Source: Aquabacterium lacunae (GTDB lineage: Bacteria; Pseudomonadota; Gammaproteobacteria; Burkholderiales; Burkholderiaceae_C). Taken from it: 64,000 nt of DNA. The stretch's first letter is position 1. The number at the start of each line of letters is the position of its first letter. A program made the translations under genes and the position numbers. Below the pieces are notes generated by a model. That model did no database searches. It was not told the origin of the DNA and saw only the letters and a program-made list of their open reading frames with translations. Shown here one piece after another: positions 2,494 through 50,305 of this stretch. Location of the stretch: contig NZ_SIXI01000002.1 in NCBI RefSeq assembly GCF_004310865.1, positions 1 to 64,000 of the forward strand, in the 5' to 3' direction.

Positions 2494-2569
2494 TGGTGGG
2501 TGCTGAGGGGCTCGAACCCCCGACCTACGCCTTGTAAGGGCGCCGCTCTACCAACTGAGCTAAGCACCC
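2494..2569 (-). tRNA. tRNA-Val (TAC anticodon)
   Basis: The minus strand gives a complete 76-nt cloverleaf starting GGGTGCTTAGCTCAGTTGGT. The anticodon loop CTTACAA gives anticodon TAC, the T-arm is GGGGGTTCGAGCCCC, and CCA is encoded. It sits between hupB and ppiD, 21 bases after the hupB stop, so it may be processed from a hupB transcript. Confidence 0.95.
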
Positions 2570-40639: not shown

Positions 40640-40704
40640 GCGTGCTCCTGATTCAACTGCCGGCATTGTCCCATTTCTGCCGCCTTTTCACGACCGCGCG
40701 GGCG

Positions 40705-40721
40705 TGCACAACGGCGGTGCG
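40705..40721 (+). promoter_or_regulatory. NtrC-like site upstream of the nitrate transporter
   Basis: TGCAC-N7-GTGCG matches the dyad pattern of NtrC sites (TGCAC-N7-GTGCA) at all but the last position. Its centre is about 50 bases before the predicted sigma-54 start, closer than classical enhancers. Confidence 0.5.
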
Positions 40722-40736
40722 CCCCGCACCACCACC

Positions 40737-40752
40737 TGGCATGGCGTTTGCT
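40737..40752 (+). promoter_or_regulatory. Sigma-54 promoter candidate of the nitrate transporter
   Basis: TGGCATGGCGTTTGCT matches the sigma-54 consensus TGGCACG-N4-TTGCW with one mismatch and correct GG-N10-GC spacing. The start codon is 64 bases downstream. Confidence 0.7.
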
Positions 40753-40815
40753 TCCACAAGGGCACAACACAAGCGTGTCCCCACGAAGGTGCACGCGCAA
40801 CCGCTGAGTGATCCC

Positions 40816-42078
40816 ATGAGCAACTTCAAGACCTTCTTGCGGTCTGGCCATGCGCCGACCCTGTTCGCCTCTTTCCTTTATTTCGACTTCACCTTTGCCA
40901 TCTGGGTGCTGAACGGGGCCATGGCGCCGTTCATCAGTGAGACCTTCAACCTCACACCCGCAGAAAAAGGCTTCATGGTGTCAGTGCCCATCATCGCGGG
41001 CGCGCTGATGCGCTTCCCCCTGGGGCTGCTGTCTCAGTACATCGGCCGCAAGAGCGCGGCGCTGGTCGAGATGTTCCTGATCATCTTGGCACTGTGCTAC
41101 GGCTACTTCTTCGTCGATTCGCACAGCGAAGTGATCGCCATGGGTGTGCTGCTGGGCATTGCCGGGGGCAGCTTCGGCATCGCGCTGTCGCTGGGTTCTG
41201 GCTGGTTCCCACCCAAGTACAAGGGGCTGGCCATGGGCATTGCCGGCGCCGGCAACAGCGGCACGGTGCTGGCCGTGCTGTTTGCCCCACCACTGGCCGC
41301 CAAGTTCGGCTGGCAGACGGTGTACGGGCTGGCCGCCTTCACGATGGTGCTGCCCATGATCGTGATGGCCCTGATGGCCAAAGAGCCGCCCGATGTCGAA
41401 CACCAGACCTTCCGCGAACACACCGCTTGCCTCTACGAGAAAGACGGCTGGGCCTTCAGCCTGATCTACGTGATCACCTTTGGCGGCTTCATTGGCCTGG
41501 CCAATTTCCTGCCCACTTACTTCTACGACCAGTTCAAGGTGACCAAGGTGGAAGCCGGGCAGCTGACCATGCTGGCCACCCTGATGGGCTCGGCCACCCG
41601 GGTGTTGGGAGGCTGGTTGTCTGACCGCTGGGGCGGCATCAACACCCTGACTGGCGTGCTGGCCTTCGTGGTGATCACCCTGGTGGTGTGCGGCACCATG
41701 GGCAGCAACCTGGCCCTGACCACCCTGCTCTTCATGCTGTGCTTTGCGGCGCTGGGTGCAGGCAACGGCGCGCTGTTCCAGCTGGTGCCTTTGCGCTGGC
41801 CCCTGACCACTGCCGTGGCCGGCTCCATGATCGGTGAGCTGGGCGCACTGGGCGGCGGGTTCATTCCGAATGCCATGGGGCAATCCAAACAACTGACCGG
41901 CAGCTACTTCTACGGCTTCCTGGCCTTCGCCGTGCTGGGTGTGGCCGTGCTGGTGATGATGCGCGTGATGCAGATCCGCTGGACACGCACCTGGGCCGAA
42001 AAAGGAGGCCGCGCGCGCACGGGCGGCACCCTGGCGCAAGCCTATGCACAAGGCACCCGCCAGGCGGGCGCCCGCTGA
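40816..42078 (+). CDS. NarK/NasA family nitrate transporter (MFS)
   Basis: This MFS transporter (420 residues) imports nitrate for assimilation. The twelve-helix pattern is present with both nitrate-signature-like glycine-rich helices (GIAGAGNSGTVLAVLFAPPLA and CFAALGAGNGALFQLVPLRWP). The sequence is close to NasA of assimilatory loci. The predicted sigma-54 promoter and NtrC-like site suggest induction on nitrogen limitation. It is followed by two terminators. Confidence 0.93.
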   Translation: MSNFKTFLRSGHAPTLFASFLYFDFTFAIWVLNGAMAPFISETFNLTPAEKGFMVSVPIIAGALMRFPLGLLSQYIGRKSAALVEMFLIILALCYGYFFVDSHSEVIAMGVLLGIAGGSFGIALSLGSGWFPPKYKGLAMGIAGAGNSGTVLAVLFAPPLAAKFGWQTVYGLAAFTMVLPMIVMALMAKEPPDVEHQTFREHTACLYEKDGWAFSLIYVITFGGFIGLANFLPTYFYDQFKVTKVEAGQLTMLATLMGSATRVLGGWLSDRWGGINTLTGVLAFVVITLVVCGTMGSNLALTTLLFMLCFAALGAGNGALFQLVPLRWPLTTAVAGSMIGELGALGGGFIPNAMGQSKQLTGSYFYGFLAFAVLGVAVLVMMRVMQIRWTRTWAEKGGRARTGGTLAQAYAQGTRQAGAR

Positions 42079-42179: not shown

Positions 42180-43907
42180 TCAGCCCCCGCGGTTCGGCAG
42201 AAACACCAGCCAATACACCAGCAGCAGGTTGAACAACAGCGACACGCCCAGGGCCAGCCTCCACACCGCAGCCGGGTCACGCTGCACCAGCGGGGTGCTG
42301 CCAGGCGCCAGCAGGGGCCGCGATGCACCGCGCTCAAGGGCCAGCACCAGCTCTTCTGCGGTTTCGAAGCGCTGCTTCGGGTCACGCGCCACGGCCTTGA
42401 GCACGATGTGGTCCAGCCAGATGGGCACGTCGGGGCGCAGGCGTGAAGGTGGCGTTGGGTCACGGCGGTAGCGCCCCATCTGGTAGGGCTCGACCTCGCC
42501 ATAGGGCAGTCGGCCCGTCAACCATTCGTAAAGCACGGCCCCCAGGGCGAAGAGGTCACTGCCCGCATGGGCCCTGGACAGCTGCGGGTCGTCCGACCAT
42601 TGCTCGGGGTTCATGTAGCTGGGCGTGCCTGCGTGCAGGCTTTTCAGGCACTCGGGCTCTTTGCCCGACAGCGCCACCCCCAGGTCGAGCAAGTGCCACT
42701 GCCCATCTTCGCCCAGCAGCAGGTTGTCGGGCTTGATGTCGCGGTGCACCACGCCATGCTGGTGCAAGCGCCCCACGGCGCGGGCAATCTCGATCGCGCC
42801 ATGCACCACCTCGGTGACATCGAAGCGTTTGTCGCGGATCAGCAAACCCAGGGGCTGGCCGTCGCACCAGTCCTGCAGGGTGTAGAAAGCCGTGGGCTGA
42901 TCGGGCTCGTGGCTGCGCACCAGGCCCCGCGCGTCGCGCTCGGTCACGCGCGCACCCAGCCAGGCCTCGTGGGCCAGCATCGCGCGCTCTTCGGGGTCGC
43001 TGGCCCGAGAGGGGTGCAAGGTCTTGAGCGCCAGAAAGCGCCCATCAGACAGGCGCTGCACCTTGCACACGCGGTGCACGCCGTTGTTGGCCACCAGCGC
43101 CAGCACCTTCAGGCCGTCGAGCACATCGCCCGCCTGGAGGCGTTCGGGCACTGGCAGCAGGCGTGAGCGGCGCTGGGCGTCGGCCAGTTCGGCTTCGGCC
43201 AGGCCCATGATGCGAATGACCAGCGCGCTGGCGTTGTCCCTGCCGCCGGAGGCCAGCGCCTTGTCGATCAGACCGTCACACACGGCCTGGGCAGACGCCA
43301 GACGCGCCAGCTCGCGAAACTGCTTGGGCCGCAAGGCGCCATGCACGCCATCGCTGGTCAGGATGAAGGTGTCGCCGATCTGGATGTCGCCCTCGCTGTG
43401 GTCCACACGCACGGCATCTTCAGCCCCCAGGGCACGGGTCAGGCCATTCTGAAACTCATGGCCGCCCATGGTGTGGTCTTGCGTGAGCTGCACGCAGTCA
43501 CCCTGACGCACCAGCCAGGCGCGGCTGTCGCCCACATGGGCCAGGCTGTAGCCATGGCCGCGCAGCACCAGCGTGGTCAGGGTGGTCATGGCGATCGGGG
43601 CGTCACGGAAAGGCTGCCGACGCCGGTTGTGGTCGGTCAGCCAGGCATTGAAGCTGCCAATCAGGCGCTCCAGCGTGACCGAGGTGTCCCAGGTGATCGG
43701 TGCGGCATGGTAGTCGCCCGTCACGGCCAGCACGGCGGCCTGTGCCGCCTCCAGACCGCCCCCGCCGCTGGACACGCCATCGGCCAGCGCCGCGATCACG
43801 CCGGCCTGGGCGTCACGCCCTTGCGGCGCCACCACCGCGGCGAAATCTTCCAGCCGCTCTCGGGGCCCACGCTCGCAGCGGCAGGCCACATCCAGTTCAA
43901 AACTCAT
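42180..43907 (-). CDS. Bifunctional PP2C-type protein phosphatase/serine-threonine kinase
   Basis: This 575-residue fusion has an N-terminal PP2C phosphatase (about 1-235: LADGVSSGGGG, HVGDSRAWL, LTSDGVHG, GGRDNASALV) and a C-terminal Hanks-type kinase (about 260-535). The kinase shows Lys295 in ALK, HRDIKPDN from 388, and DLG at 408 in place of DFG. The glycine loop is weak (ALVANNGVHRVCKV). One membrane helix closes the chain (about 553-572). A homologous fusion lies beside nasA and nirB in Pseudomonas aeruginosa, so a role in nitrate assimilation control is plausible. Its own promoter lies in the shared 211-base divergent region. Confidence 0.93.
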   Translation of the reverse strand: MSFELDVACRCERGPRERLEDFAAVVAPQGRDAQAGVIAALADGVSSGGGGLEAAQAAVLAVTGDYHAAPITWDTSVTLERLIGSFNAWLTDHNRRRQPFRDAPIAMTTLTTLVLRGHGYSLAHVGDSRAWLVRQGDCVQLTQDHTMGGHEFQNGLTRALGAEDAVRVDHSEGDIQIGDTFILTSDGVHGALRPKQFRELARLASAQAVCDGLIDKALASGGRDNASALVIRIMGLAEAELADAQRRSRLLPVPERLQAGDVLDGLKVLALVANNGVHRVCKVQRLSDGRFLALKTLHPSRASDPEERAMLAHEAWLGARVTERDARGLVRSHEPDQPTAFYTLQDWCDGQPLGLLIRDKRFDVTEVVHGAIEIARAVGRLHQHGVVHRDIKPDNLLLGEDGQWHLLDLGVALSGKEPECLKSLHAGTPSYMNPEQWSDDPQLSRAHAGSDLFALGAVLYEWLTGRLPYGEVEPYQMGRYRRDPTPPSRLRPDVPIWLDHIVLKAVARDPKQRFETAEELVLALERGASRPLLAPGSTPLVQRDPAAVWRLALGVSLLFNLLLVYWLVFLPNRGG

Positions 43908-44118: not shown

Positions 44119-45339
44119 ATGAACAAGCAGAAGCTCGTGATGGTCGGCAACGGCATGGCCGGGGTTCGCACCCTGGAAGAGCTGCTCAAGCTCGCGCCAG
44201 ACCTGTACGACATCACGGTGTTCAGTGCCGAGCCGCACCCGAATTACAACCGCATCATGCTCTCGCCCGTGCTGGCTGGCGAGCAGACCCTGGACGACAT
44301 CATCCTGAACCCGCTGCAGTGGTATGCCGATCGCGGCATCACCCTGCACCTGGGCCGCAAGGTGGTCGAGGTCGACCGCCAGCGCCGCATCGTGCGCGCC
44401 GACGATGGCACCGAAGCGCCTTACGACCGCCTGCTGATGGCCACGGGCTCGAACCCCTTCATCCTGCCGGTGCCAGGCAAGGAACTGGACGGTGTGATCG
44501 CCTACCGTGACATTGCCGACACCGAGTACATGATCGAGACCGCTCGCCAGCACCGCCATGCGGTGGTGATCGGGGGCGGGCTGCTGGGCCTGGAGGCGGC
44601 CTATGGCCTGCGTCAGCGCGGCATGGAAGTCACCGTGGTGCACATTGCGCCGTGGCTGCTCGAGCGTCAGCTCGATCAAAAAGCCGCCGGCCTGCTGCAA
44701 AGCACGCTGGAAGGCCACGGCCTGAGGTTCCGCATCGGGGCGCAGACACAAGAGCTGGTCGACAACGGACAGGGCCGGGTGTGTGCCGTGCGCTTCAAGG
44801 ACGGCACCGAGGCCGCAGCCGACCTGGTGGTCATGGCCGCGGGTGTGCGGCCCAACGTGGGCCTGGCCCAGCAGACCGGCTTGCACTGCGAGCGCGGCAT
44901 TGTGGTGACCGACACCTTGCAGACGGTGACCGACCCCCGGGTGTACGCCGTGGGCGAGTGTGCCGCCCATCGCGGCATCGCCTATGGCCTGGTGGCCCCC
45001 TTGTTCGACCAGGCCAAGGTGTGTGCCACGCACCTGGCGCAGTTCGGCATCGGGCGCTACACCGGCTCGCAGATCTCGACCAAGCTGAAGGTGACCGGTG
45101 TGCAGCTGTTTTCGGCGGGCAACTTCATGGGGGGCGAAGGCACCGAAGAGATCGTGCTGGACGATCCGCAGGCCGGGGTCTACAAGAAGCTGGTGCTGGC
45201 GGGCGAGCAGCTGGTGGGGGCCTGCCTGTACGGCGACACCGACGATGGCAGCTGGTACTTCCAGCTGATCCAGGACGGCGCGAAGGTGGGCGCCATGCGT
45301 GACCGCCTGATCTTCGGGCAGGCGCTGGCCTGCGCCTGA
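44119..45339 (+). CDS. NirB-N-terminal-like FAD/NAD(P)-dependent oxidoreductase, nitrate assimilation
   Basis: The 406-residue protein matches only the FAD/NAD half of the nitrite reductase large subunit NirB: GNGMAGVRTLEELL (FAD), HPNYNRIMLSPVLAGE, VVIGGGLLGLEAAYGL (NAD), and the AVGECAAHRG segment. It lacks the iron-sulfur and siroheme parts. The size and context match the electron-transfer subunit of assimilatory nitrate reductase (NasC of Klebsiella), which passes electrons from NADH to the catalytic subunit. A truncated NirB is the alternative, but the clean end argues against decay. Confidence 0.88.
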   Translation: MNKQKLVMVGNGMAGVRTLEELLKLAPDLYDITVFSAEPHPNYNRIMLSPVLAGEQTLDDIILNPLQWYADRGITLHLGRKVVEVDRQRRIVRADDGTEAPYDRLLMATGSNPFILPVPGKELDGVIAYRDIADTEYMIETARQHRHAVVIGGGLLGLEAAYGLRQRGMEVTVVHIAPWLLERQLDQKAAGLLQSTLEGHGLRFRIGAQTQELVDNGQGRVCAVRFKDGTEAAADLVVMAAGVRPNVGLAQQTGLHCERGIVVTDTLQTVTDPRVYAVGECAAHRGIAYGLVAPLFDQAKVCATHLAQFGIGRYTGSQISTKLKVTGVQLFSAGNFMGGEGTEEIVLDDPQAGVYKKLVLAGEQLVGACLYGDTDDGSWYFQLIQDGAKVGAMRDRLIFGQALACA

Positions 45340-45439: not shown

Positions 45440-46288
45440 ATGAAGCACACCGAATCGCTGAACATTTCCCGCCGCCAGGCCCTGCTCGGCGCCATGACAC
45501 CCCTGCTGACACCCGGGGTCCCGTTTGCACTGAGCCTTGGGCTGACCACACCGCTGACCGTGCAGGCCCAGGTCACATCACTGAATGACGCCATCAACAA
45601 GGCGGGCCGCCAGCGCATGCTGTCTCAGCGCATGGCCAAGGCCTGGCTGGCCCTGGGCCAAGGCATCGATGCACGTCGCGCCGACAAGGTGCTGGGCGAC
45701 TCGATGGCCTTGTTCGACCGCCAGCTGGTCGAACTGAAAAGTTACGCGCCCACCCCGGACATCAGGAGCACCTACCAAAGCCTGGAGGCGGCCTGGAGCG
45801 ACTACAAGGCTGCGCTGGTGGGACAGTCTCCCGACCGCTCGGCCACCGGGCTGGTGCTGGGCCTGGACAGCAAGGTGCTCAAGCTGGCGCATCAAGGCAC
45901 GGTGCAACTGGAGCAGCTGTCGGGCAAGCCGGTGGGCAAACTGGTGAACGTGGCGGGCCGCCAGCGCATGCTGTCTCAACGCACGGCCAAGTTCTACCTC
46001 AGCCAGCGCTGGGGTGCACAGGTGGCCGATGCGCCAGGCGAAATGGAGAAAGCGCGGCAAGAGTTCCGGTCGGCGCTGAACCTGCTGTATGTGGCCCCTC
46101 AGGCCACCCCCACGATCCGTGAGCACCTCACGTTGGCCGAGCAGCAATGGGTGTTCTTCGAAAACGCCTTGAGCCGACTGCAGGAGCCTGCTGGGGCTCA
46201 GCGCCGAGCCGAAGAGGTGTTCTCCACCTCTGAAAACATCCTGATGGTCATGGACAAGGTCACAGGCCTGTACGCCCAGCTCGGCTGA
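45440..46288 (+). CDS. Exported protein with two PilJ/NarX-type nitrate-sensor-like segments
   Basis: This 282-residue protein has a twin-arginine-like signal (SRRQALLGA, about 10-18; probable cleavage after VQAQ at 41-44). It has no later membrane segment or signalling domain. Two copies of a P-box-like segment, AGRQRMLSQR, lie at about 55-64 and 172-181, each opening a helical module of the type IV pili chemotaxis-transducer N-terminal family. In NarX-type sensors the P-box binds nitrate or nitrite. The DNA is identical over 27 bases in the two copies. It lies between the reductase subunits, so a periplasmic nitrate-binding role is inferred. Confidence 0.85.
   Translation: MKHTESLNISRRQALLGAMTPLLTPGVPFALSLGLTTPLTVQAQVTSLNDAINKAGRQRMLSQRMAKAWLALGQGIDARRADKVLGDSMALFDRQLVELKSYAPTPDIRSTYQSLEAAWSDYKAALVGQSPDRSATGLVLGLDSKVLKLAHQGTVQLEQLSGKPVGKLVNVAGRQRMLSQRTAKFYLSQRWGAQVADAPGEMEKARQEFRSALNLLYVAPQATPTIREHLTLAEQQWVFFENALSRLQEPAGAQRRAEEVFSTSENILMVMDKVTGLYAQLG
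45601..45978 (+). repeat. Internal 27-base direct repeat in the double-P-box gene
   Basis: A 27-base stretch (GGCGGGCCGCCAGCGCATGC and the next seven bases) at 45601-45627 recurs exactly at 45952-45978, 351 bases or 117 codons apart. It is in frame and encodes AGRQRMLSQ in both modules. Confidence 0.9.
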
Positions 46289-46464: not shown

Positions 46465-49326
46465 ATGAGCAGGACCATCCCCATCCGCGCCCCTGAGGGC
46501 GAGCGCCAGCACACGCGTGCCACCTGCCCCTATTGCGGCACGGGTTGTGGCGTGATCATCGAAACCCGCCACGGCCAGATCGTCGATGTACAGGGCGACC
46601 CGGATCACCCGGCCAACTTCGGCAGGCTGTGCACCAAGGGCAGCACCCTGCACCTGACCGCGGCCCCGGCCGTGACCCAGGCCGCTCGCCTGCTGCAACC
46701 GGCCCTGCGCACGCAGCGCGATCAGGCACCGCAAGCCACCACCTGGAGCACGGCCCTCGACCATGTGGCCCAGGAGCTGGCGCGCATCGTGCGCACGCAC
46801 GGCCCGGACGCCATCGGCTTTTACGGCTCCGGTCAGCTGCTGACCGAAGACTATTACGTGCTCAACAAGCTGGCCAAAGGGCTGGTGGGCACCAACAACC
46901 TCGACACCAATTCGCGCCTGTGCATGAGCAGCGCCGTGGCCGGCTACAAGGCCACGCTGGGGGTGGATGCCCCCCCGGCCTGCTACGACGATTTCCAGCA
47001 CGCCCGCACCCTGTTCATCGTGGGGGCCAACACGGCATATGCGCACCCGATCCTGTTCCGGCGCATCGAGGGGGCCCGCAAGGCCAACCCGGATCAGAAG
47101 CTGATCGTGGCCGACCCACGCAAGACCGAGACGGCCGAAATGGCCGATCTGTACCTGCCCTTGCGCCCGGGCACCGACGTGGCGCTGTTCCATGGCCTGC
47201 TGCACATTGCGCTGGCCGAAGGCCTGATCGACATGGCCTACATCGAGGCCCACACCGAAGGCTTCGAGGCCCTGCGTGCCACCGTGGCCGACCACCCGCC
47301 CGCCCGCGTGGCCGATGTCTGCGGCGTGCCCGAAGCCGACCTGCTGCAGGCCGCGCGCTGGATGGGCGCTCACACGCCCACCCTGTCGCTGTATTGCCAG
47401 GGCCTGAACCAGAGCAGCCGCGGCACCGACAAGAACGCCACGCTCATCAACTTCCATCTGGCCACCGGACAGATCGGCAAGCCTGGCGCAGGCCCTTTCT
47501 CGCTGACCGGGCAGCCCAATGCCATGGGTGGGCGCGAAGTGGGCGGCATGGCCAACCTGCTGAGCGCGCACCGCGACCTGGCCAACCCGGCCCACCGCGA
47601 AGAGGTGGCCGCCCTGTGGGGTGTGGCCGATGTGCCCGCCCAGCCCGGCAAGACCGCCGTGGAAATGTTCGAAGCCGCTGCCCGCGGCGAGATCAAGGCC
47701 CTGTGGATTGCATGCACGAACCCCGCGCAGTCATTGCCTGACCAGGCCACCGTGCGCAAGGCACTGGAAACCGCCGAGCTGGTGGTGGTGCAGGAAGCCT
47801 TCGCCACGACCGCCACCGTGCCGTATGCCGATGTGCTGCTGCCGGCCACCACCTGGGGCGAAAAAGACGGCACCGTGACCAACAGCGAGCGCCGCATCAG
47901 CCGTGTGCGGGCGGCCCAGGCGCCTTCGGGGCTGGCCCGACACGACTGGCAGATCTTCCGCGACGTGGCCCGCCGCCTCGAAGCCTTGATGCCCGAGCGT
48001 CGCGCCACCTGGCGCACAGGCACCACCACCCTGTTCCCTTATGAAACCGCTGAGCAGGTGTGGAACGAACACCGCGACAGCACCCGCGGCCGTGACCTCG
48101 ACATCACGGGGCTGAGCTACGCCCTGCTGGAGCAGCAAGGCCCGCAGCAATGGCCCATGCCCGAAGGCCATGCACAAGGCACCGCGCGCCTGTACACCGA
48201 CGGGCGCTTCCCCACCCCCAGCGGCCGTGCGCGATTTGCCAACGTGCCCTACGAACCCGTGCAAGACCCCTGCACGGCCGAGTTCCCCATCAGCCTGAAC
48301 ACCGGGCGGCTGCGCGACCAGTGGCACGGCATGAGCCGCACCGGCACGCTGGGCCGCCTGTTCGGCCATGTCAGCGAACCCTGCATCGACCTGCACGCCA
48401 CCGACCTGCAGCAACGGGGCCTGGCCGAAGGCGACCTGGTGGAAGTGCGCTCGCGCCGTGGCAGCGTGATCGTGCCGGTGCACACCAGCGAGGCACAGCG
48501 CCCGGGGCAGGCTTTCATGGCCATGCACTGGGGCCAGGAAGTGCTGGGCGGCACCGGGCCGGAGGGGCAGGCCCGCACAGGGGTGAACGCCCTGACCAGT
48601 CCCTTCTTCTGCCCAAAATCCAAACAGCCCGAACTCAAGCACGCGGCCGTGCAGATCAGCCCTGTGCAACTGCCCTGGCGCCTGCTGGCCCTGGTGTGGT
48701 TGCCGGCCGAGCAGGCCAGCCGCTTGCGCGAGGCCCTCAAGGCGCAGATGACCGATTTCGCTTATGCCAGCTGCGTGCCTTTCGGCCGGGAGCCCCATGC
48801 GCAAGGCCTGGTGGGCGTGCTGTTCCGTGGCGCCCGCACCGAAGCGCCCAGCGCCGAATGGCTGCACGCCATGGAAGCCCTGCTGGGCCTGGACACCCCC
48901 GACTGCCTGCGCCTGCGCGACACCGCCCGAGGCCAGCACCGCACCGTGCGCCGGCAGGCCCTTGGCGAACAGCAAGTGCTGCAAGGCTTCCTGCTGGGTG
49001 GTGACATCAGCTCCGAAGTCTGGCTGCGCCCTTTGCTGCAGGAGGAAAGCCCGGTCGACACCTTCGGGCGCAACCTGCTAATGCCCGGCGCCACGCCCCC
49101 CGTGGCCACGGCCAGCAAAGGCCGTCAGGTGTGCACCTGCTTCAATGTGACCGAACCGGCCATCGTCGAAACACTGGGCCAGTGCCAGGGCTCGCCCGAC
49201 GAGCGGCTGTCGGCCCTTCAGGGGCAGCTGCGCTGTGGCACCAACTGCGGCTCCTGCGTGCCCGAACTCAAGAAGCTGATCAAGTCGCACCCGGCTCGGT
49301 GCGACAGCACGGCACCCGCGGCCTGA
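46465..49326 (+). CDS. Assimilatory nitrate reductase catalytic subunit
   Basis: This molybdopterin enzyme (953 residues) reduces nitrate to nitrite in the cytoplasm. The N-terminal [4Fe-4S] cysteines are Cys21, Cys24, Cys28 and Cys56 (CPYCGTGC...RLCTKG). Bis-MGD motifs follow, including DTNSRLCMSSAVAGYK, TGQIGKPGAGPFSLTGQPNAMGGREVGG and FPTPSGRARF. The C-terminus (about 885-940) is a BFD-like [2Fe-2S] domain (CTCFNV...CGTNCGSC) that receives electrons. There is no signal peptide. The 406-residue FAD/NAD protein nearby is the likely electron donor; MogA at 23 kb serves the cofactor. Confidence 0.95.
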   Translation: MSRTIPIRAPEGERQHTRATCPYCGTGCGVIIETRHGQIVDVQGDPDHPANFGRLCTKGSTLHLTAAPAVTQAARLLQPALRTQRDQAPQATTWSTALDHVAQELARIVRTHGPDAIGFYGSGQLLTEDYYVLNKLAKGLVGTNNLDTNSRLCMSSAVAGYKATLGVDAPPACYDDFQHARTLFIVGANTAYAHPILFRRIEGARKANPDQKLIVADPRKTETAEMADLYLPLRPGTDVALFHGLLHIALAEGLIDMAYIEAHTEGFEALRATVADHPPARVADVCGVPEADLLQAARWMGAHTPTLSLYCQGLNQSSRGTDKNATLINFHLATGQIGKPGAGPFSLTGQPNAMGGREVGGMANLLSAHRDLANPAHREEVAALWGVADVPAQPGKTAVEMFEAAARGEIKALWIACTNPAQSLPDQATVRKALETAELVVVQEAFATTATVPYADVLLPATTWGEKDGTVTNSERRISRVRAAQAPSGLARHDWQIFRDVARRLEALMPERRATWRTGTTTLFPYETAEQVWNEHRDSTRGRDLDITGLSYALLEQQGPQQWPMPEGHAQGTARLYTDGRFPTPSGRARFANVPYEPVQDPCTAEFPISLNTGRLRDQWHGMSRTGTLGRLFGHVSEPCIDLHATDLQQRGLAEGDLVEVRSRRGSVIVPVHTSEAQRPGQAFMAMHWGQEVLGGTGPEGQARTGVNALTSPFFCPKSKQPELKHAAVQISPVQLPWRLLALVWLPAEQASRLREALKAQMTDFAYASCVPFGREPHAQGLVGVLFRGARTEAPSAEWLHAMEALLGLDTPDCLRLRDTARGQHRTVRRQALGEQQVLQGFLLGGDISSEVWLRPLLQEESPVDTFGRNLLMPGATPPVATASKGRQVCTCFNVTEPAIVETLGQCQGSPDERLSALQGQLRCGTNCGSCVPELKKLIKSHPARCDSTAPAA

Positions 49327-49345: not shown

Positions 49346-50305
49346 ATGAGCATTGCCGCCTACATCAAGGAAATCGGCCGGGGCAAAGAAGGCGCCCGGC
49401 CGCTGTCGTGTGACCAGGCCCGTGACCTGTTCGACCAGGTCCTCGACGGCCGTGTGACCGACCTCGAGGTCGGCGCCTTCGCCCTGGCCATGCGCATCAA
49501 GGGCGAAACCGACGAAGAACTGGATGGGTTCGTGCAGTCCACCCTGGCGCGCTGTATGCCGCTGCCTGCACCCCAGCCCCATGGCTCGGGCGTGGTGGTG
49601 CTGCCCAGCTACAACGGCGCACGCAAGCTGCCCAACCTGACCGCGCTGCTGGCTGCCCATCTGGCGCGCAGCGGTGTGGCGGTGCTGGTGCATGGCCCGC
49701 TGGCCGATCCCACCCGGGTCACCACGGCCCAGGTGTTCGATGCCCTCGGCTGGGCGCGGTGCCGTACACCGCAAGAAGTGGCTTCGGCCTGGCTGGCGCG
49801 CCAACCTGCCTTTGTCGACACCCACACCCTCTGCCCTGGCTTGGCCAGGTTGCTGGACGTGCGCTGGACCATCGGCCTGCGCAACCCGGCGCACACCGTG
49901 GCCAAGCTGCTCGCCCCCCTGCCGCCAGCCGTGCCCACCGTGCGTGTGGTCAACCATACCCACCCTGAATACGCCGTGTCGCTGAAGGCTTACCTGCAGC
50001 GCACCCAGGCCAACGCACTGCTGATGCGAGGCACCGAAGGCGAGCCCGTGGCCGACGCGCGCAGGCAACCCCGTTTCGATGTGTACCTGCAAGGCGAGAT
50101 GGACACCAGCCTGAGCCGTCAACCCCAGGAGGGCACGCTGACCGCCCTGCCCGACCTGCCCACGCAACACGACGCTGGCACCACTGCGGCATACATCCAG
50201 TCGGTGCTGGAGGGCACACAACCCTTGCCTGAGTCGATCGGCCAGCAAGCCCGATGCCTGCGACAGGCCCTGGGGCAGGCCGAAGCCCGGCACGCCCAGC
50301 GCTGA
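49346..50305 (+). CDS. ybiB: DNA-binding protein YbiB (TrpD2 family)
   Basis: The 319-residue protein has the anthranilate phosphoribosyltransferase-like fold: an N-terminal helical bundle (IAAYIKEIGRGKEGARPLSCDQARDLFDQVLDGRVTDLEVGAFALAMRIKGE) and a larger domain with HGPLADPTRVTTAQVFDALG. TrpD2/YbiB lacks the PRPP-site residues and binds nucleic acid. It follows the nitrate reductase stop by 19 bases and is probably co-transcribed; the reason for the link is unknown. Confidence 0.9.
   Translation: MSIAAYIKEIGRGKEGARPLSCDQARDLFDQVLDGRVTDLEVGAFALAMRIKGETDEELDGFVQSTLARCMPLPAPQPHGSGVVVLPSYNGARKLPNLTALLAAHLARSGVAVLVHGPLADPTRVTTAQVFDALGWARCRTPQEVASAWLARQPAFVDTHTLCPGLARLLDVRWTIGLRNPAHTVAKLLAPLPPAVPTVRVVNHTHPEYAVSLKAYLQRTQANALLMRGTEGEPVADARRQPRFDVYLQGEMDTSLSRQPQEGTLTALPDLPTQHDAGTTAAYIQSVLEGTQPLPESIGQQARCLRQALGQAEARHAQR

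Follow-up and report, generated by a model that had tools for sequence, protein, structure and literature searches.

The 64,000-nucleotide stretch of Aquabacterium lacunae DNA analyzed here (the window) encodes a small, predicted soluble protein of two tandem PilJ modules, preceded by a twin-arginine-like signal. Both modules carry a nitrate-type ligand motif, the predicted fold most resembles that of the NIT domain of NasR, and relatives of the gene are found repeatedly in gene clusters for nitrate use. The favoured interpretation, given about an even chance of being correct, is that the protein is soluble in the periplasm and uses one intramolecular site to sense or capture nitrate (or nitrite). 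The recurrence of a soluble exported version in nitrate-use clusters, mostly of betaproteobacteria in the sample, suggests that nitrate perception or uptake includes a step in the periplasm that has gone unrecognized.

The gene (45440..46288, plus strand; ORF list and Pfam) is a single ORF of 282 amino acids running from the ATG at 45440 to the stop codon at 46288. PF13675 (PilJ) matched the product in two stretches (Pfam, E 3.9e-23, 82.1 bits compared to a curated cut-off of 26.6). In a six-frame PF13675 search of the genome the two modules scored 52 and 39.4 bits, both above that cut-off. Based on Pfam and an AlphaFold2 model, module 1 is the first four-helix bundle (residues 48-161; 45581..45922, plus strand) and module 2 is the second (residues 164-281; 45929..46282, plus strand). 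The modules aligned to each other over 77 columns with 38% identity (BLASTP, E 3e-9). A chance repeat was rejected, as the modules are homologous across these columns. No domain besides PilJ was found in the protein by Pfam at E <= 0.01, and the transmembrane and kinase or MCP output domains of NarX-, NarQ- and McpN-type receptors were absent from its Pfam matches. No hydrophobic segment was seen other than the signal, and in the model the protein ends one residue past the last helix of bundle 2. The preliminary description of this DNA had proposed two tandem modules with AGRQRMLSQR (residues 55-64 and 172-181) and no membrane or signalling domain, and both points agree with these results.

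A twin-arginine signal peptide was assigned to residues 1-43 (45440..45568, plus strand) from the sequence and a regular expression applied to the clade of the window protein. The N-terminus contains SRRQALLG with the arginine pair at residues 11-12, followed by a hydrophobic stretch and a cleavage-like site, VQA/Q, at residues 41-44. By regular expression, the arginine pair is present upstream of the N-box in all 46 rows of the clade and a signal-peptidase-like site, [AVGST]xA, in 44 of them. The twin-arginine-like signal noted in the preliminary description was therefore recovered, with the features of a Tat substrate (twin arginine, hydrophobic region, signal-peptidase site) present at motif level. 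With a stricter regular expression, and among the matches listed, 43 of 49 nas-linked proteins were Tat-like while 11 of 12 nir, nar, and nrt members were Sec-like, these figures being motif counts rather than the output of a trained predictor. Judged by its signal motif, the tandem-PilJ protein is very probably exported.

The N-box was defined by Martin-Mora et al. for nitrate-binding PilJ domains (PMC6381276). Both modules fit the McpN pattern of that paper, [IVL]-[ND]-x-A-G-x-Q-R-M-L-[ST]-Q, exactly. N-box 1, INKAGRQRMLSQ, covers residues 52-63 (45593..45628, plus strand) and N-box 2, VNVAGRQRMLSQ, covers residues 169-180 (45944..45979, plus strand). R59 and R176, respectively, are the counterparts of McpN R61, which makes two hydrogen bonds with nitrate (PMC6381276). 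The same paper describes PilJ domains in transcriptional regulators, kinases, chemoreceptors, and cyclases, and nitrate binding is not common to all of them. The tandem LBD of PilJ, which has no N-box, is described there as not binding nitrate, and NarX and NarQ as also binding nitrite and sulfite (PMC6381276). The tandem-PilJ protein quite probably binds an N-oxyanion.

The AlphaFold2 model was built with a 24-sequence alignment and had a pLDDT of 90.5 and a pTM of 0.83, with low confidence in the signal region (residues 1-40, pLDDT about 50). Eight helices were predicted (48-73, 78-102, 106-128, 133-161, 164-190, 198-218, 224-244, and 253-281). The top match by VIA-align was NasR (4akk_B; Z 19.4, rmsd 3.2, 232 residues), the runner-up had a Z of 12.7 over 115 residues, and McpN and NarQ scored 11.3 (module 1) and 9.8. 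Middling Z scores come easily to helical bundles, so it is the gap between NasR and the runner-up that matters. Foldseek found nothing at E <= 0.001. Among the 50 Foldseek matches listed the NasR chains had the highest query-normalized TM (0.56-0.57), and tandem PilJ structures reached 0.23 at most. A PilJ-like stacking of the bundles was rejected on account of this difference in arrangement. The predicted model has a NIT-type fold of two bundles forming a pseudo-dimer, and the helical NarX/PilJ-type fold expected from the preliminary description was thus obtained. In NasR the proposed pocket consists of Arg50 and Arg176, the latter on helix 5 (PMC7496416). In the model of the window protein helix 1 carries R59 and helix 5 carries R176, which suggests a single intramolecular site.

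A profile of 24 relatives was compared to the sequences of solved structures and aligned to McpN (E 1.3e-11), PilJ (3.8e-8), and NarQ (0.00095). NasR was absent from the 12 solved sequences found by that profile at E <= 10. No PF08376 (NIT) match was found in the tandem-PilJ protein by Pfam at E 0.01. Sequence homology to NIT was rejected following hhalign with the single NIT-ANTAR sequence of the same genome, which gave a probability of 0.1, and common ancestry with NIT is not supported by these comparisons.

A short NirB-like FAD/NAD(P)H oxidoreductase of 406 amino acids is encoded 100 nt upstream of the tandem-PilJ gene (44119..45339, plus strand; Pfam and NCBIfam). It covers positions 1-399 of the 794 positions of the NirB model and the siroheme part is missing. 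The gene 176 nt downstream (46465..49326, plus strand; Pfam and NCBIfam) encodes a molybdopterin oxidoreductase whose C-terminal domain is BFD [2Fe-2S]. The enzyme is read as the catalytic subunit of an assimilatory nitrate reductase (nasC) from the arrangement of its domains and the genes around it. Among NCBIfam models formate dehydrogenase alpha scored highest, at 529 bits compared to a cut-off of 666, and those for NasA/NasC (485 and 463 bits) were also below cut-off. The counterpart in locus L042 likewise had no NCBIfam model over cut-off, with formate dehydrogenase alpha best. The preliminary description had placed the gene between nitrate reductase subunits. The flanking genes are these two oxidoreductases, and as the reductase is named from layout and neighbours with no model over cut-off, that placement is no more than likely.

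YbiB (49346..50305, plus strand; Pfam and NCBIfam, NF006005 over cut-off) often closes the cluster in relatives. A fusion of PP2C phosphatase and protein kinase that carries a hydrophobic segment at its C-terminal end (42180..43907, minus strand; Pfam) recurs in nas clusters. A NarK-type nitrate/nitrite transporter ORF (40642..42078, plus strand), whose true start is probably near 40816, ends 3.4 kb upstream of the tandem-PilJ gene and scored 232.5 bits with TIGR00886, under the cut-off of 311.7. A promoter and terminator scan of the window gave nothing of note. One distant match to a sigma-54-like pattern was found in the window, below chance expectation. Two tRNA genes, tRNA-His (gtg) and tRNA-Val (tac), were located at 338-413 and 2494-2569 (minus strand), respectively.

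Relatives were collected by scanning genome contigs with N-box patterns, and the best 80 loci of at least 314 relatives (at least 587 stretches) were taken, so the larger set is biased toward close relatives of the window protein. There were 173 places above 60 bits. Removal of three frames shorter than 240 amino acids and four duplicates left 166 double-PilJ proteins; L209 and L210, two of a group of 40 regions, gave no row. Among the matches listed, 138 were classed as free-standing and 28 were fused, 27 to ANTAR and one to a Crp-like regulator (L060). Proteins were classed as free-standing when no ANTAR marker was present in the frame, with L060 set aside. Several free-standing frames extend far upstream (795 amino acids in L126 and 600 in L191) and Pfam shows only PilJ there. 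At the order level 29 of 150 genomes had a match at E <= 0.001, some of them weak and in long frames. A plasmid search gave three records, one of which is an annotated ANTAR fusion. The sole annotated relative met bears a generic name.

A relative was scored as linked when at least two markers belonging to the same system lay within 7 kb. NarG, NarH, NarI, NirB, NirD, NirJ, AhbA/B-type NirDL, ntrCD, and ntrB were scored over curated cut-offs. Cytochrom_D1 served as the cd1-type marker and NMT1_2 as the NrtA-like marker, and NasC was named from layout only. Among the matches listed, 61 of the 138 free-standing relatives were linked (nas 37, nas and nrt 12, nir heme-d1 7, nar 3, nrt 2), compared to none of 20 arbitrary control windows with any marker (18.7 kb each, at round-number positions, some of the same genomes). 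The conserved link with nitrate genes anticipated in the preliminary description is thus present in this part of the family. In Comamonadaceae-like genomes the recurrent order is NarK, PP2C-kinase, NirB, the tandem-PilJ gene, (NirD), NasC, and YbiB, and in other genomes nrt or narK genes are found near the gene of the relative. Hydrogenophaga pseudoflava (L075) has NirB, the tandem-PilJ gene, NirD, and NasC in series.

A quick maximum likelihood tree (LG+G4, with long-branch warnings) was constructed. The window protein clusters with nas-linked proteins including Aquabacterium, Methylibium, Caldimonas, Burkholderiales, and Comamonadaceae records. Its clade comprises 46 rows, of which 42 are nas-linked, and G-x-x-R is intact in both modules of every row. 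The starred branches force at least four nas, two nir, two nar, and two nrt changes, the nrt figure coming from two rows only.

No nas, nrt, nir, or nar marker pair was found within 7 kb of 77 of the 138 free-standing relatives among the matches listed. Large unlinked groups are located between TldD/cytochrome c and DAHP synthase or adjoin ThiF, and other unlinked loci are in housekeeping or RND-pump settings. In L145 and L146 the exported tandem-PilJ gene is flanked by HlyD-type and AcrB-type RND pump genes. In L197 (4916-9771) narX, narL, an Alginate_exp-type porin, and the tandem-PilJ gene lie in series, with an MFS gene also adjacent; a similar porin (70% identity) lies beside the tandem-PilJ copy of L198. 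As L197 adjoins narX and narL and was scored unlinked, the number of unlinked relatives is overestimated, at least slightly. Among the matches listed, G-x-x-R is present in both modules of all 61 nitrate-linked free-standing relatives and of 62 of the 77 unlinked ones. The latter proteins, with motifs intact and nitrate neighbours absent, are consistent with another ligand, such as nitrite, NO-derived species, sulfite, chlorate, or an unrelated compound, nitrate linkage then being true of part of the family. The nitrite and sulfite binding of NarX/NarQ and the behaviour of the PilJ tandem LBD, as described in PMC6381276, point the same way. This explanation is nevertheless considered unlikely, as both N-boxes fit exactly and the family has repeatedly become part of different N-oxide gene clusters. 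In the homology-found set, proteins with intact G-x-x-R were linked in 12 cases and unlinked in 8, compared to 0 and 10 for degenerate proteins (Fisher p 0.0016), although nine of the ten degenerate proteins belong to one clade. An independent-pairs test of G-x-x-R against linkage had just three pairs on starred branches and was powerless.

The preliminary description had also proposed that the protein could be a partner for a sensor or transporter. The only other PF13675 protein of the host genome is the pilus transducer PilJ, in which both modules are without G-x-x-R by eye, and the sensor partner as originally worded did not hold up. A NarX- or McpN-type PilJ-domain receptor as partner was rejected, as none was found in the host genome, and no membrane partner for the exported protein was identified there. 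The host genome also encodes a 643 amino acid protein (L232 436-2367, minus strand) with a NIT match of 34.3 bits (cut-off 24.9), a membrane chemoreceptor by eye, which leaves room for a NIT-type membrane partner. This protein is possibly a nitrate taxis receptor of this organism. A full NirB is encoded elsewhere in the genome (L189 1443-3974), adjoining a NIT-ANTAR gene whose product is a cytosolic, NasR-like regulator. Two ABC permeases scored over the ntrB cut-off and narG was not found over cut-off in the host genome. A link to a transporter is possible given the upstream NarK-type gene and the nrt or narK genes near relatives.

That the exported protein pairs with and tunes a NarX-, McpN-, or NIT-type receptor by way of the periplasmic domain of the latter is regarded as improbable. 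The shared domain family and the NIT-domain chemoreceptor of the host genome are in keeping with such a co-receptor, as are the L197 copy beside narX, narL, and the porin, and three Cupriavidus/Ralstonia records (L109, L117, and L139) where the gene directly upstream encodes a single PilJ domain and a short MCP-signalling stretch. The host genome, however, has no membrane sensor bearing a nitrate-type PilJ, and the usual partner surface would not be free in a tandem that is already pseudo-dimeric.

Within the genus a close orthologue (E < 1e-90) was found in 19 of 41 genomes, every one of which has nasC. Eighteen of these orthologues are no more than 6 kb from nasC, the G642 copy being on a different contig, and in four the matched ranges are 22-23 bp from that of the reductase gene. 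No close orthologue was found in 19 of the 38 nasC-bearing genomes, 14 of which are at least 90% complete, or in the three genomes without nasC. The gene thus accompanies the cluster but is dispensable. This distribution argues against the protein helping nitrate and nitrite reductases to assemble or mature, or serving them as a periplasmic chaperone, rather than acting as a sensor. The enzymes of nas clusters are cytoplasmic, whereas the tandem-PilJ protein is predicted to be exported, and the conserved ligand residues would be left unexplained. A helper would suit L050 and L055, where the tandem-PilJ gene follows narI and precedes a peptidylprolyl-isomerase-like gene, and the relatives within heme d1 biosynthesis clusters, but on balance it is another improbable explanation.

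The nitrate ligand motif is gone in at least one module of the tandem-PilJ relatives of L054, L056, L057, L058, L061, and L063-L066. L056 and L057 are located at the end of what, judging by the encoded proteins, is taken to be a cell-division cluster of the ftsZ type. Nine degenerate proteins, with G-x-x-R lost in at least one module, form a separate clade with zero nitrate linkage, and while they could be taken to suggest a functionless decaying remnant of a sensor, this is highly improbable for the window protein, whose clade retains the arginines of both modules in 46 of 46 rows along with the twin arginine.

Fusions of a receiver-like domain, ANTAR, and a tandem PilJ were found in L062, L071, L073-L075, L083-L085, L087, L088, L092, L096, L102, L142, L205, and L212-L223. 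They fall on one side of a branch of the tree (100*) and are encoded in many nas clusters, often next to the gene of the exported protein. A match spanning the ANTAR and PilJ parts was found in 13 of 100 genomes of the family. G-x-x-R is present in both modules of 26 of the 27 ANTAR fusions, the second motif being altered in L212_676. In an alignment of 24 of the 27 the N, G, and R of both motifs are invariant. In a model of the L062 fusion the tandem aligned to NasR (Z 17.8) and the receiver-ANTAR part to EutV (Z 17.0). These fusions are a probable alternative to NasR or NasT-NasS. In the fusion, with its NasR-like tandem, the tandem module apparently does the sensing for a one-component regulator; the exported protein consists of this module by itself. 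By analogy, the exported protein may sense or hold nitrate outside the membrane. In L060 (8182-9705) the tandem PilJ is joined to a Crp/FNR-type regulator, and a cytochrome-d1-type (NirS/N/F-like) gene lies close by.

Under the preferred reading of a receptor or capture protein, the tandem-PilJ protein would fold in the cytoplasm, leave by the Tat route, and be released soluble into the periplasm. The two covalently linked PilJ bundles would pack side by side as a pseudo-dimer in the manner of the NasR NIT domain. A single site for nitrate, or possibly nitrite, would lie between R59 of the first helix and R176 of the fifth. The external nitrate signal, or the ion itself, would then be handed to a membrane partner, with the NarK/Nrt uptake system as the leading candidate. 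That the protein has such a role, as a receptor or in capture, in connection with uptake or sensing is about as likely as not, with the 77 unlinked relatives, the 19 genus genomes without an orthologue, and the scores of the reductase gene below curated cut-offs all counting against it. More tentatively, and with considerable doubt, the protein may represent a new class of periplasmic binding protein, pseudo-dimeric, helical, and NIT-like rather than a Venus-flytrap SBP. It would serve NarK- or Nrt-type uptake or an unrecognized membrane sensor and would have joined the clusters for assimilation, nitrate respiration, and denitrification in separate events.

PilJ and NIT nitrate sensor domains are known as a kind. 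Nitrate sensing through P-box or N-box domains is known from membrane receptors and from the cytosolic NasR. No description of a free-standing exported tandem PilJ, its Tat-like signal, or its repeated placement in N-oxide clusters was found in searches of the open-licence full-text literature (PMC). NrtA and NasS are similar in possible role, as soluble nitrate-binding proteins of nitrate clusters, but belong to a different family (the NrtA-like marker is Pfam NMT1_2) and co-occur with the tandem-PilJ protein in nas and nrt loci. The type IV pilus transducer PilJ (7zjr, 8wdf) also has two PilJ modules per chain, and single modules align with Z scores of 10-11. PilJ differs in global arrangement (TM 0.23) and is membrane-bound, and according to PMC6381276 it is without an N-box and its LBD without nitrate binding. 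The sensor domain of NarX and NarQ shares the P-box G-x-x-R and the four-helix bundle, whereas the tandem-PilJ protein has no HAMP or kinase parts. The periplasmic PilJ domain of McpN (6gcv) shares PF13675, the N-box, and the R61 equivalent and aligned to module 1 with a Z of 11.3. McpN is a membrane chemoreceptor with a single module that dimerizes between chains, unlike the two modules per chain and lack of a membrane part seen here. The NIT domain of Klebsiella oxytoca NasR (4akk) is similar in its eight helices, in its two bundles resembling a NarX-type dimer, and in its arginines, one placed early and one on helix 5 (PMC7247690, PMC7496416). The tandem-PilJ protein differs from it in having no ANTAR or output domain, no Pfam NIT match, and no relation by hhalign, and in being predicted to be exported.
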